DNA of 64,000 bases. Source: Buttiauxella gaviniae (GTDB lineage: Bacteria; Pseudomonadota; Gammaproteobacteria; Enterobacterales; Enterobacteriaceae). The notes under the pieces were generated by a model that saw only the letters and a list, made by a program, of their open reading frames with translations, was not told where the DNA came from and ran no database searches. Made by a program: the position numbers and the translations under genes. Shown here piece after piece: positions 8,625-30,718 of the stretch; the stretch's first letter is position 1, and every line of letters begins with the position of its first letter. Location of the stretch: NCBI RefSeq assembly GCF_040786275.1, contig NZ_JBFMVT010000002.1:1674001-1738000 (forward strand). The letters run 5' to 3'.

Positions 8625-8751
8625 TATACCCAAAATAGTTCGAGTTGCAGGCAGGCGGCGCCGCAGTGAATACCCGGAAACTTACTCCAGTAAGTGACTG
8701 GGGTGAGTGAGGAAAGCCAACGCACATGCAATTTGAAGTATAACGGGCATA
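8625..8751. repeat. Full-length ERIC element (127 bp)
   Basis: Runs from TATACCCAAAATAGTTCGAG to TATAACGGGCATA and contains the ERIC core (CAGTAAGTGACTGGGGTGAG, then GCCAACGCACATGCA). The length is exactly the canonical 127 bp and the termini are inverted. It serves as the internal reference for the coding ERIC found in hycHI at 29320-29446. Confidence 0.92.
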
Positions 8752-25763: not shown

Positions 25764-27473
25764 ATGTCTGAAGAAAAGATTGGTCAACATTATATCGCCG
25801 CGCTGCATAAGCAATTCCCGCATGCGGTTATCGACGAAGCCTGGCAGACCAAAGACCAAATCACCGTCAATGTGAAGCTCAACATGCTGCCAGAAGTGGT
25901 GGAGTGGCTTTACTACCAGCAAGGTGGCTGGTTATCCGTATTGTTCGGGAACGATGAGCGCCAACTGTGCGGCAGCTACGCCGTTTACTACGTGCTTTCC
26001 ATGGAGAGCGGCGTGAAATGCTGGATCACCGTGCGCGTAGAAGTGGACGCTGATAAACCAGAATTCCCGTCCGTGACACCGCGCGTGCCAGCCGCCGTTT
26101 GGGGCGAGCGTGAAGTGCGTGATATGTACGGCCTGCAACCTGTTGGCCTGCCGGATGAACGCCGTTTAGTACTGCCCGATGACTGGCCAGACGATCTCTA
26201 TCCGCTGCGTAAAGACAGCATGGATTATCGCCAGCGTCCGGCCCCTACCAGCGACCAGGAAACGTATCAGTTCATCAACGAACTGGGCAGCAAGAAAAAC
26301 AATGTGGTGCCGATTGGCCCACTGCACGTCACTTCTGACGAACCGGGCCACTTCCGCCTGTTCGTCGATGGCGAAAACATTATCGACGCCGATTACCGCC
26401 TGTTCTACGTCCACCGTGGCATGGAAAAACTGGCGGAAACCCGCATGGGCTATAACGAAGTTACCTTCCTGTCTGACCGCGTGTGTGGCATCTGTGGTTT
26501 CGCCCACAGCACCGCCTACACCACATCGGTTGAGAATGCGATGGGCATCGTGGTGCCGGAACGCGCCCAGATGATCCGCGCCATTTTGCTGGAAGTGGAA
26601 CGTCTGCACAGCCACCTGCTGAACCTCGGCCTGGCCTGCCACTTTGTTGGCTTCGACTCAGGCTTCATGCAGTTCTTCCGCGTGCGTGAGATGTCCATGA
26701 AAATGGCGGAAATCCTCACCGGCGCGCGTAAAACTTACGGCCTGAACCTGATCGGCGGGATTCGTCGCGATCTGCTCAAAGACGACATGATCCAGACCCG
26801 CCAGCTTGCCCAGCAGATGCGCCGCGAAGTGAAAGATCTGGTCGATATTCTGATGAGCACGCCAAACATCGAGCAGCGTACCGTCGGCATTGGCCGCCTC
26901 GACCCACAAATCGCCCGCGATTTCAGTAACGTTGGCCCGATGGTTCGCGCCAGCGGTCACGCCCGCGACACCCGCGCCGATCACCCGTTTGTCGGTTACG
27001 GCCTGCTGCCAATGGAAGTGCATAGCGAAACCGGCTGCGACGTGCTGTCACGCCTGAAAGTGCGTATCAACGAAGTCTATACCGCGCTGAATATGATTGA
27101 TTTTGGTCTGGATAACTTGCCTGGCGGCCCGCTGGCCGTTGACGGATTTACCTATATTCCAAACCGCTTCGCGCTTGGTTTCTCTGAAGCTCCGCGCGGG
27201 GATGATATTCACTGGTCAATGACCGGCGATAACCAGAAGTTGTACCGCTGGCGCTGCCGTGCGGCGACCTACGCCAACTGGCCAACGCTGCGTTACATGC
27301 TGCGCGGTAACACCGTTTCTGATGCGCCGCTGATCATCGGCAGCCTCGACCCTTGCTACTCCTGCACCGACCGCATGACGGTGGTTGATGTGCGCAAGCG
27401 CAAGACCAAAGTGGTGCCGTACAAAGAGCTTGAGCGTTACAGCATTGAACGCACTAATTCGCCGCTGAAATGA
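25764..27473 (+). CDS. hycE: Hydrogenase-3 large (catalytic NiFe) subunit HycE, precursor
   Basis: Evolves H2 in the cytoplasmic FHL complex. It has 569 residues, as in E. coli. A NuoC-like N-terminal domain (about 1-165) is fused to a NuoD-like catalytic domain. NiFe ligands are Cys241/Cys244 (RVCGICG) and Cys531/Cys534 (DPCYSCTDR). After Arg537 there is a 32-residue tail (MTVVDVR...NSPLK) that the HycI protease removes once nickel is in place. In this genome that protease exists only as part of the HycH-HycI fusion. It is followed by an unusual 132-bp gap with REP units before hycF. Confidence 0.98.
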   Translation: MSEEKIGQHYIAALHKQFPHAVIDEAWQTKDQITVNVKLNMLPEVVEWLYYQQGGWLSVLFGNDERQLCGSYAVYYVLSMESGVKCWITVRVEVDADKPEFPSVTPRVPAAVWGEREVRDMYGLQPVGLPDERRLVLPDDWPDDLYPLRKDSMDYRQRPAPTSDQETYQFINELGSKKNNVVPIGPLHVTSDEPGHFRLFVDGENIIDADYRLFYVHRGMEKLAETRMGYNEVTFLSDRVCGICGFAHSTAYTTSVENAMGIVVPERAQMIRAILLEVERLHSHLLNLGLACHFVGFDSGFMQFFRVREMSMKMAEILTGARKTYGLNLIGGIRRDLLKDDMIQTRQLAQQMRREVKDLVDILMSTPNIEQRTVGIGRLDPQIARDFSNVGPMVRASGHARDTRADHPFVGYGLLPMEVHSETGCDVLSRLKVRINEVYTALNMIDFGLDNLPGGPLAVDGFTYIPNRFALGFSEAPRGDDIHWSMTGDNQKLYRWRCRAATYANWPTLRYMLRGNTVSDAPLIIGSLDPCYSCTDRMTVVDVRKRKTKVVPYKELERYSIERTNSPLK

Positions 27474-28148: not shown

Positions 28149-28912
28149 TGAGTAATTTACTCGGCCCACGTGACGATAAAGGCATGCCCGTGCCAATGAC
28201 GGTGGATGAATCCATCGCCGCCATGAAAACGTCGCTGCTGAAAAAAATTAAACGCTCTGCATATGTTTATCGCGTTGACTGCGGAGGCTGTAACGGCTGC
28301 GAAATTGAAATTTTCGCCACCCTTTCGCCACTTTTCGATGCAGAACGCTTCGGGATTAAAGTGGTTCCATCGCCACGCCATGCGGATATTTTACTGTTCA
28401 CGGGCGCAGTGACGCGAGCCATGCGCTCCCCTGCGCTGCGTGCCTGGGAATCCGCGCCGGACCCTAAAATCTGCATCTCTTACGGCGCGTGCGGTAACAG
28501 CGGCGGCATCTTCCACGACCTGTATTGCGTCTGGGGCGGCACCGACAAAATCGTTCCTGTCGATGTCTATATTCCTGGCTGCCCGCCAACGCCTGCGGCA
28601 ACGCTGTACGGTTTTGCCATGGCGCTGGGGCTGCTGGAGCAAAAAATCCACGCCCGCGAAGCCAGTGAATTGGACGCGCAACCGGCGCAAATTCTGCATC
28701 CGGATATGGTTCAACCGCTGCGTGTGCGAATCGATCGCGAAGCGCGTCGTCTGGCAGGCTACCGCTATGGCCGTCAAATTGCTGACAGCTATATGGAAAA
28801 CCTCACCGCCGGTGGCGGCAGCGTTCAGCAGTGGCTGGCCCACGAGAACGATCCACGTCTGACGGAAATTGTCGGCAACCTTGAAGCACTGGTGAAGCAG
28901 GAGCGCGTGTAA
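28148..28912 (+). CDS. hycG: Hydrogenase-3 small subunit HycG
   Basis: The NuoB-like small subunit holding the [4Fe-4S] cluster next to the NiFe site of HycE. It has 254 residues (255 in E. coli). Cluster ligands are in [11 protein letters not shown] (Cys45, Cys48, Cys51), [11 protein letters not shown] and [10 protein letters not shown]. The start overlaps the hycF stop by one base and the end overlaps the hycHI start by one base, so translation is coupled across all three genes. Confidence 0.97.
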
Positions 28913-29913
28913 TGAGCGAGTCGGTGGTGTTTTGCCAGCTTAGCCGTAAGTTTGTCGATGAAAACGACAACACACCGAGTGATGCACAGCAGGTGGTCTA
29001 TTACAGCCTGGCAATCGGCCATCATCTCGGCGTTATCGACTGCCTGAAAGAGAACCTGGTTTGTTCCTTTGAGCCTTACAAAGCGTGGATTGCCACGCTT
29101 GAAGAAGGCAGCGAAGCGCGACGCAAAATGGAAGGGGTGCCGCGTTACGGTGAAATTGTTATCGATCAAAGCCATGTAGTTTTGCTGGCAAAAGCGTTTG
29201 ATGCCGCAAAACCAACGCAAACCGAGCAGCAGCAAAAGTGGAGTCAGGAATTGCTCGACATGCTGCAAGCGATTCAACAAGAACCCGCCATCTATTTGAT
29301 GGTGCGCAGGCGCTATGACCTCGACCAAAATAATTCGAGTTGCAGTCAGGCGGCAACTGAGCAAGTCCCCGAGAGCATAGATAACTCTGCGACCGGGGCG
29401 AGCGAAAGCAGCCAACGCGACTGCGGCTCGAAGAATGAAGGTCGTAACGTTTTACTTTGTGTCGGCAACAGCATGATGGGCGACGATGGCGCAGGCCCAT
29501 TGCTGGCCGAAAAGTGCCTGGCCGCCCCACAAGGCGACTGGGTGGTTATCGACGGCGGCACCGCACCTGAAAATGACGTGGTGGCCATTCGTGAATTGCG
29601 CCCGGAACGTTTGCTGCTGGTCGATGCTACGGACATGGGTCTTAACCCCGGCGAAATCCGCATTATTGACCCGGATGACATCGCCGAAATGTTTATGATG
29701 ACCACCCACAATATGCCGCTTAACTATCTGATCGATCAGTTGAAGGATGATATTGGCGAAGTGATTTTCCTCGGCATTCAGCCTGATATCGTCGGGTTTT
29801 ACTACCCAATGACCGATGCCGTGAAAGCGGCGGTTGAGACGGTGTATCAGCGTCTGGCTGGCTGGGAAGGCAACGGCGGTTTTGCGGAGCTGGAAGCGCC
29901 TGAGTTTGAGTGA
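28912..29913 (+). CDS. hycH-hycI: HycH-HycI fusion: FHL assembly factor joined to the hydrogenase-3 maturation protease through an ERIC-encoded linker
   Basis: One uninterrupted 333-codon frame replaces the two separate genes of E. coli. Residues 1-136 are HycH ([14 protein letters not shown]...AIYLMVRR), the assembly factor, usual length 136. Residues about 177-333 are HycI, the endopeptidase that trims HycE, with its three metal-site residues at fusion Asp192 (GDDGAGP), Asp238 (LLVDATDMG) and His266 (TTHNMP), equivalent to HycI 16, 62 and 90. Residues 137-176 are a polar, Ser/Asn/Gln-rich linker translated from an ERIC repeat (29320-29446). The probable old hycI ATG (29315-29317) survives out of frame and ends at TAG 29378-29380. 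No in-frame start lies between Met130 and the HycI active-site motif, so HycI should exist only as the fusion. Confidence 0.93.
   Translation: MSESVVFCQLSRKFVDENDNTPSDAQQVVYYSLAIGHHLGVIDCLKENLVCSFEPYKAWIATLEEGSEARRKMEGVPRYGEIVIDQSHVVLLAKAFDAAKPTQTEQQQKWSQELLDMLQAIQQEPAIYLMVRRRYDLDQNNSSCSQAATEQVPESIDNSATGASESSQRDCGSKNEGRNVLLCVGNSMMGDDGAGPLLAEKCLAAPQGDWVVIDGGTAPENDVVAIRELRPERLLLVDATDMGLNPGEIRIIDPDDIAEMFMMTTHNMPLNYLIDQLKDDIGEVIFLGIQPDIVGFYYPMTDAVKAAVETVYQRLAGWEGNGGFAELEAPEFE
29320..29446. repeat. Coding ERIC element inside hycHI
   Basis: About 127 bp aligning with the ERIC at 8625-8751: CCAAAATAATTCGAGTTGCAG at the left, GGGGCGAGCGAAAGCAGCC in the middle, and CTCGAAGAATGAAGGTCG at the right, with inverted termini. 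The centre has diverged from the ERIC consensus and contains no stop codon in the hycHI frame. Confidence 0.88.
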
Positions 29914-29917
29914 TGTT

Positions 29918-29996
29918 CATCGGATGACGCTGCGCTTATCCGACCTACGAATATAAGCATCAGGTAGGTCGGATAAGGCGCCAGCCGCCAGCCGAC
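29918..29996. repeat. Inverted REP pair between hycHI and hydN
   Basis: Units at about 29918-29948 (CGGATGACGCTGCGCTTATC...CTAC) and 29964-29996 (GTAGGTCGGATAAGGCGCCA...CGAC). Confidence 0.83.
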
Positions 29997-30020
29997 CTAA
30001 TTCCCTCCCCCTTTGTCATC

Positions 30021-30060
30021 TGCCCAAATGACATCGTCAAATGTGTCGATGTCACTGTCA
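30021..30060. promoter_or_regulatory. Putative FhlA upstream activating sequence of hydN
   Basis: AAATGACATCGTCAAATG followed by TGTCGATGTCACTGTCA, variants of the TGTCGAAATGaCA motif found at the other FHL promoters. It is 50-90 bp upstream of the -24 element. A one-mismatch IHF-like sequence (TAAGCCCTTGAAT, 30081-30093) lies between. Confidence 0.55.
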
Positions 30061-30109
30061 TCCCGCCCCGGATCAATACCTAAGCCCTTGAATCACGCTA
30101 CTTTGAAAG

Positions 30110-30126
30110 TTGGCACACTTTATGTA
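30110..30126 (+). promoter_or_regulatory. Sigma-54-type promoter of hydN-fdhF (imperfect -12)
   Basis: TTGGCACACTTTATGTA: the -24 half is consensus (GG at 30112-30113), but at N10 spacing the -12 dinucleotide is GT instead of GC. About 50 bp before the hydN ATG. Confidence 0.6.
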
Positions 30127-30172
30127 TGTCTATGGTCGACGTATAAATAAAACACTCTTTCAGGAGTTCATG

Positions 30173-30718
30173 ATGAACCGCTTCATCATTGCTGATTCCA
30201 GCAAATGTATTGGCTGTCGCACTTGCGAAGTGGCCTGTGTCGTGTCCCACCAGGAAGCGCAGGATTGTGCGGCATTAACCCCACAGACCTTTCTTCCGCG
30301 TATTCATGTGATTAAAGGCGTCAATGTTTCCACCGCGACGATGTGCCGCCAGTGCGAAGACGCACCTTGCGCCAACGTCTGCCCGAACGGGGCGATTAGC
30401 CGCGAGCATGGTTTTGTGAACGTGATGCAAGAACGTTGCATCGGCTGCAAAACCTGCGTGGTTGCCTGCCCGTATGGCGCAATGGAAGTGGTTGTTCGTC
30501 CGGTTGTTCGCAACAGCGGCGCGGGTCTTAATGTGATTGCAGAAAAAGCAGAAGCCAATAAATGCGACCTCTGCCACACCCGCGCAGAAGGCCCTGCCTG
30601 CATGGAAGCCTGCCCAACCAACGCCATTATCTGCGTTGATCGCAATAAACTTGAGCAAATGAGTGCCGAAAAACGCCGCCGCGCGGCGTTCGATGCCACT
30701 TCATCCCTGATTTTCTAA
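30173..30718 (+). CDS. hydN: Electron-transport protein HydN
   Basis: A 181-residue four-cluster ferredoxin-like protein (175 in E. coli), close to HycB, that supports formate dehydrogenase-H activity. Cluster motifs are CIGCRTCEVAC (Cys12 onward), CRQCEDAPCANVCP, CIGCKTCVVACP and CDLC...CMEACP. The start is the second of two adjacent ATGs (30173), giving MNRFIIADS as in HycB; CAGGAG lies 6 nt upstream. It is followed after 37 bp by fdhF, an arrangement absent from K-12, where hydN pairs directly with hypF and fdhF is elsewhere. Confidence 0.95.
   Translation: MNRFIIADSSKCIGCRTCEVACVVSHQEAQDCAALTPQTFLPRIHVIKGVNVSTATMCRQCEDAPCANVCPNGAISREHGFVNVMQERCIGCKTCVVACPYGAMEVVVRPVVRNSGAGLNVIAEKAEANKCDLCHTRAEGPACMEACPTNAIICVDRNKLEQMSAEKRRRAAFDATSSLIF

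Follow-up and report, generated by a model that had tools for sequence, protein, structure and literature searches.

ERIC (RU-1) in-frame fusions were described by Delihas in 2007 (PMC2759123), in whose examples a 127-bp ERIC is read as coding and, in the ECA3499 amidase, seems also to have eliminated the usual stop. In the cases set out in the available portion of that paper, the repeat forms the tail or the head of one gene. In-frame MITE fusions have also been reviewed (PMC10969869), and the Rickettsia palindromic elements treated there are likewise small palindromic mobile repeats in frame within protein genes, which, in the available text of that review, modify single gene products.

At the Buttiauxella locus described here, unlike in either of these groups, an ERIC links two complete, functionally linked neighbouring genes, hycH and hycI. 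The same two families stand at the end of the E. coli hyc operon, where hycH and hycI are separate genes in the 20 records listed, whereas the Buttiauxella fusion is encoded as a single chain. A Providencia HycH-HycI protein is alike in its domains, their order and its single frame, and differs in having junctions of variable length without an ERIC match. Our search of the open-licence literature turned up neither an ERIC that joins two whole genes nor a naturally occurring HycH-HycI protein. What is known is an ERIC in frame inside genes; what appears from these sequences to be new is an ERIC joining two whole genes.

The fused frame and its ERIC junction

The window, i.e., the whole 64,000-nt stretch of Buttiauxella gaviniae DNA that was analysed, contains what we take, by recognising translations, to be the hyc (formate hydrogenlyase) operon followed by hydN-, fdhF- and hypF-like genes; the other hyc genes are recognised in it as long open frames. 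The hycH-hycI fusion gene (28912..29913, plus strand) is a single open frame of 333 codons plus stop. Its HycH part (residues 1-136; 28912..29319, plus strand) matches PF07450 over residues 5-133, with 194.1 bits against a curated cut-off of 25, and the NCBIfam model NF011664 over residues 1-134. Linker codons for residues 137-178 follow (29320..29445, plus strand). The HycI part (residues 179-333 plus stop; 29446..29913, plus strand) matches the Pfam HycI domain over residues 205-316 and TIGR00142 (hycI) over 180-323, with 213.7 bits against a curated equivalog cut-off of 119.1, so that both NCBIfam matches exceed their cut-offs. A structure search added the known HycI fold only, the HycI part being 86-87% identical to the E. 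coli HycI structures 2E85 and 2I8L. D192, D238 and H266, which we take to be the nickel-binding-type Asp, Asp and His residues, are present. The presumed substrate is encoded at 25764..27473 (plus strand) by a frame that we named hycE; its translation carries a C-terminal extension after VVDVRKR, the presumed cleavage region.

The first-pass annotation, made from the letters of the window, had proposed the 333-codon frame, its coordinates, the extent of HycH (1-136) and the three retained residues, and both the translation and the domain matches agree with it. Its account of the linker as a 40-residue, ~127-bp ERIC derivative stands as to origin, and not as to length: the linker has 42 residues (137-178) and the net insert is 125 nt.

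The similarity of the linker to ERIC is far beyond chance. By blastn, 28 other places in the same genome match it at E <= 0.001 (the best at 9.1e-15), and many of these matches span query positions 414-530 at unchanged length. Aligned with 30 own-genome ERIC copies (30 of 44 places were taken, a few of them partial), the linker spans the whole element; copies in register are mostly 126 long. A canonical copy for comparison lies at 8625..8751 (plus strand) of the window. Alignment of ERIC copies and empty sites places the net insert at 29320..29444 (plus strand), and these 125 nt, together with the TA at 29445-29446, make up a 127-bp ERIC. The terminal inverted repeat consists of a left arm, CGACC (29322..29326, plus strand), and a right arm, GGTCG (29440..29444, plus strand), which pair with each other in the RNA fold. 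Among the copies L176-L205, the ERIC termini vary (CGACC/GGTCG, AAACC/GGTTT, AACAC/GTGTT and others), and by eye many copies keep their internal complementarity.

HycH is found in 12 of 12 Buttiauxella genomes, fused to HycI in three (the window's genome, G000; B. agrestis ATCC 33320, G002; and Buttiauxella sp. B2, G006) and encoded next to hycI as a separate, overlapping gene in nine. The open frames have 342, 392 and 342 codons in the fused genomes and 141-178 in the unfused ones, and the fused proteins of G002 and G006 are 94-95% identical to that of the window. The nine unfused congeners, in which HycH has 136 aa, display the empty site, TATGAC-TAA: the hycH TAA lies within ...TATGACTAA..., and the hycI ATG is inside the same stretch. 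In the three fused genomes, 125 nt stand between GAC and TAACG (TAGTG in G006). Compared with the nine unfused genomes, the hycH stop codon TAA thus remains at 29445..29447 (plus strand), out of the reading frame. The target of ERIC is TA, according to the available text of PMC2759123, and this target together with the end-to-end alignment indicates that the ERIC entered the TA of the hycH TAA stop. Relative to the frame of hycH, that of hycI is one base ahead, so an insert of 125 nt joins the two exactly in frame without any later indel. The earlier proposal that an ERIC at a normal hycH/hycI junction had joined the two frames is supported, the empty site being directly visible in nine congeners. 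Where a stop or frameshift within 29320-29446 would have spoken against it, the same open insert occurs in three assemblies and the three linkers are free of indels. At the ends of the insert, the right TA is present, the empty site holds TA and the left copy reads CT in all three fused genomes; this shared CT argues for a single original insertion.

As RNA, the linker folds as the ERIC hairpin, like other copies: the three fused linkers reach -54 to -56 kcal/mol (z -5.3 to -6.3), and 20 own-genome ERIC copies span -36 to -70 kcal/mol (z -1.3 to -9.4). We considered selection on the RNA structure of the linker and rejected it: two pairs are changed on both sides among the three sequences, and 49 of 500 shuffles reach the same, which is a hint only.

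Linker evolution and the HycI domain

Ser, Asn, Gln, Glu and Ala abound in the linker, whose residues 137-176 are predicted to be disordered (pLDDT <50, from a shallow alignment of 21 sequences), so that composition and prediction both agree with the polar flexible linker suggested at first. The structure model as a whole is weak (mean pLDDT 67, pTM 0.47, the same 21 sequences) and is uninformative on domain packing.

Among the three fused genomes, the linkers differ pairwise by 0.071-0.079 and carry no indels. Their dN/dS is 0.51-0.89, from few changes in 42 codons of three species, and dS is 0.08-0.12 in the linker, 0.40-0.67 in HycH and 0.68-1.05 in HycI. Intergenic DNA differs by 0.11-0.26 between the fused genomes, with 66 indels in 1889 aligned nt (11 stretches) for G000/G002 and 37 in 1426 aligned nt (eight stretches; three more were without flanks) for G000/G006, figures that are inflated, as is the divergence, by stretches that hold replaced sequence. 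Nine other orthologous ERIC pairs differ by 0-0.126, five of them with two gap columns; by the same measure, with short flanks included, the linker pairs differ by 0.079-0.113 without a gap. Because other orthologous ERICs diverge equally little, the low divergence of the linker is weak evidence of constraint, and a younger linker age through exchange would also fit it. Comparing dN/dS across the linker, as had been suggested, gave no support for selection on it, and we rejected protein-level selection on the linker as its ratio is indistinguishable from neutral.

The first-pass annotation had also seen in the ERIC centre a divergence that kept the frame open, and had taken this as a sign of selection. 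This argument fails, because the centre belongs to a common ERIC subtype (CATAGATAACTATG, at most one mismatch: 68 matches, present in 12 of 12 Buttiauxella genomes) and other copies of it are open. Among 30 fetched centre matches, three are the linker itself, and six of the other 27 are open throughout in this frame; judged by their flanks, these six represent about three distinct sites. Copies most like the canonical ERIC usually have, in this frame, a TGA at residue 151, a TAA at residue 159 or both, and an in-register stop occurs in 29 of the 30 G000 copies (30 of 44 places); the remaining one (L170) is open from end to end by way of two compensating indels. The ERIC could, from these comparisons, have been open when it was inserted. 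A stop mutated away after insertion is unnecessary given the open subtype copies, although canonical copies carry TGA and TAA here.

The old hycI start (ATG at 29315..29317, plus strand; ACG in Buttiauxella sp. B2) is orphaned in the window. As first described, it is out of frame and reads 21 codons to the TAG at 29378-29380. The further claim that HycI has no start of its own holds, as to standard starts, for G000 and G006, whose sequence from HycH to the GNSMMGDD motif is free of in-frame ATG, GTG and TTG codons. B. agrestis has no stop between the domains but does have an in-frame GTG160 and TTG181, which could start a free HycI. The next in-frame ATG is codon 188, and a start there would leave out the first HycI strand (residues 178-184 of the model).

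Each of the three fused genomes has one match to PF01750, the fused one. Across the 12 Buttiauxella genomes the family has 13 places, and only G005 has two, its second HycI-family protease lying elsewhere (G005:C1:198233-198610). As ratios of means, dN/dS of HycI is 0.047 between fused genomes, 0.042 between fused and unfused and 0.040 between unfused genomes; for HycH the values are 0.020, 0.026 and 0.032. The Ser of the GNS motif is kept in the nine unfused genomes and in the window, and is Thr in B. agrestis (L040) and Pro in Buttiauxella sp. B2 (L039); this change in two fused genomes could be a hint of relaxed constraint. Lindenstrauss in 2017 reportedly described HycH as a chaperone with two functions in the assembly of formate hydrogenlyase. 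In E. coli and Pectobacterium, H2 production requires a HycI-type protease, as stated in the available text of PMC7654741. Given that requirement, a sole HycI-family protease and a conserved HycI, the fused species should mature HycE with the single chain.

Fused and separate genes across species

For the history of the junction within the genus, trees were built from five partitions of 11 of the 12 Buttiauxella genomes, one MAG and two Cedecea genomes. The fused genomes form a clade in none of the five partitions, and the fused state is thus not fixed. B. agrestis pairs with the unfused B. warmboldiae in the upstream (support 0.990), downstream (0.999), HycI (0.969) and all-flanks (1.000) trees; in the HycH tree it falls weakly among other unfused species, apart from B. 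warmboldiae. G000 and G006 take positions that have poor support or depend on the partition. To the left of the insert, B. agrestis and B. warmboldiae share 81 identical nt ending at its edge, and to the right they have two differences in about the first 83 nt. There are two histories that these sequences would fit: (i) precise loss of the ERIC in several lineages or (ii) exchange of the junction by recombination in very short tracts. The discordant trees would favour recombination in the region, and the shared flanks would favour loss or gain without exchange.

Several observations concern the surroundings of the junction and the records used. Six extra nt stand at the hycI start in the junctions of G003, G007, G010 and G011 (L013, L012, L014 and L018), and G007 and G003 share them though G007 is closest to G008 in HycH, a pattern that suggests local recombination or an excision trace. 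Between hycI and hydN (29914-30174 of the window), G001, G002 and G005 have a segment of about 0.7 kb, on whose minus strand lie two small ORFs, a pair that by its look is presumably a HigB/HigA-type toxin-antitoxin; G000 and G006 are without this segment, and G000 has, by eye, REP-like palindromes there. L056 and L040 carry the same label, B. agrestis ATCC 33320, but are about 9% different and do not agree in fusion state; one of them is probably mislabelled, and L056 is marked UNVERIFIED_ORG. The MAG labelled Buttiauxella (L060) is unfused and falls on the Cedecea side of the tree. A further B. gaviniae junction (L052) is unfused. Gas from B. gaviniae is mentioned in the available text of PMC6752017.

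Wider samples were also searched for fused-length frames. HycH was present in 52 of 394 genomes of the order sample, with fused-length frames only in two Buttiauxella; in 178 of 392 genomes of the family sample, where, among the matches listed, only two Buttiauxella and three Providencia-type genomes had fused-length frames; and in 1 of 369 genomes of the class sample, the window's own. In E. coli, 2907 of 5426 genomes matched, none over more than 80% of the query, and the 20 matches listed cover hycI only, so this search alone is no test for fusion. Among 80 named loci taken from 268 relatives, a single frame holds both domains in six cases, two of them in Buttiauxella and four in Providencia. 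Between hycH and hycI, Intestinirhabdus alba has a gap of about 0.3 kb and Superficieibacter one of about 0.8 kb, so this junction is disturbed in several genera.

The Providencia-type genus, to which G650 belongs and which has some junctions in common, letter for letter, with named Providencia loci, has HycH in 14 of 24 genomes, nine with fused-length frames (325-343) and five without (146-167). In the five unfused members, the hycI ATG overlaps the hycH TGA. Six of the nine fused ones keep the old hycI ATG at a distance one base longer (16 in two of the six), which brings it into the hycH frame, and three have lost it, the codon being GTA, GTA or GCG. From YLIVKR to GNS, the junction measures 144-180 nt in the nine as against 71 in the five. 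A single branch of the unrooted tree (support 0.998) separates the nine from the five, and none of the nine has a broken frame despite the differing junction lengths; as being in frame was how the nine were chosen, the independent point is the single branch without a broken member. Searched against 62 ERIC rows at E 0.1, the nine junctions matched none, and the Buttiauxella linker gave 66 hits; some of these rows are repeats or linker copies. The Providencia-type fusion thus looks independent of that in Buttiauxella and apparently arose by a one-base shift at the hycH/hycI overlap. Where its ATG remains, free HycI could also be made. The database search for single-chain HycH-HycI that had been proposed at the outset accordingly turned up Buttiauxella and the Providencia-type genus, and only the Buttiauxella junction matches ERIC.

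Origin and meaning of the proposed single chain

We put at about 0.85 the probability that an ERIC insertion fused hycH and hycI, that the product works as one chain with both HycH and HycI functions and that a separate fusion arose in the Providencia-type genus. On this reading, an ERIC with a CATAG centre would have inserted, in a Buttiauxella ancestor, into the TA of the hycH TAA that overlaps the hycI start. The net gain of 125 nt would have removed the stop, severed the hycI start and brought the hycH frame into that of hycI. One chain of 37 kDa would then be translated, consisting of the HycH chaperone, a disordered linker of 42 residues and the HycI protease, and both ends would act on pre-HycE, HycH holding the precursor and HycI trimming its C-terminus. 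The fused allele would later have been lost or exchanged between species, and the Providencia-type genus would have reached the same fusion separately, apparently by the one-base shift. Genome comparison demonstrates the insertion site, the frame, the absence of a second HycI-family protease and the conservation of both domains; the earlier reading appears right on the origin, and a two-function protein is likely.

Whether the fusion benefits its hosts is a separate matter. It may be translated and working yet merely tolerated, the ERIC linker being an inert spacer without benefit, a reading compatible with the one just given and, in our judgement, an even bet. The near-neutral dN/dS of the linker and the patchy presence in Buttiauxella are as it would predict, and open copies of the ERIC subtype are not rare, so that no special selection would be needed. 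Against it stand the independent Providencia-type fusion, with one group of nine, several junction lengths and no broken frame, and the indel-free Buttiauxella linker; these two observations speak for retention of the fusion and not for its superiority. Selection for retaining it would be better argued from the sole protease, the conservation of HycI, the lack of linker indels and the independent Providencia-type fusion than from the ERIC centre. A stronger version, in which joining chaperone to protease is useful, has been found at least twice and uses the ERIC as a switchable linker that toggles fused and separate states among species, is in our view doubtful.

The remaining readings question the single chain itself. 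Separate HycI might still be made from a non-standard start, by ribosomal slippage or by cleavage within the linker, whose predicted disorder could expose it to cutting; the GTG160 and TTG181 of B. agrestis and the old ATG in frame in six of the nine Providencia-type fusions fit this, but G000 and G006 offer no in-frame ATG, GTG or TTG, ATG188 would cost the first HycI strand and the old frame ends at a TAG after 21 codons, so we consider it improbable. That the insertion broke hycI, leaving a decaying gene and unprocessed hydrogenase-3 in the fused species, is far less probable still: the GNS Ser replaced by Thr or Pro in two genomes is what such decay might look like, whereas HycI dN/dS between fused species is 0.047, the active-type residues are kept in the window, the frame is intact in three divergent species, no second HycI-family protease occurs in the fused genomes and the other hyc frames of the window are long and open. 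An assembly or sequencing error can be practically dismissed, as three separate assemblies have the same insert with lineage-specific substitutions.

With the ERIC-made chaperone-protease chain as the preferred reading, Buttiauxella would offer a natural case in which a short mobile repeat has turned neighbours in the same pathway into a two-domain protein, with the empty site preserved in congeners. It may serve as a test of whether one chain can, or should, combine the hand-over of a [NiFe]-hydrogenase precursor by its chaperone with the trimming of the precursor's C-terminus, and as a natural fusion with which to try trapping a HycH/pre-HycE/HycI complex. The Providencia-type fusion would make that question a comparative one.
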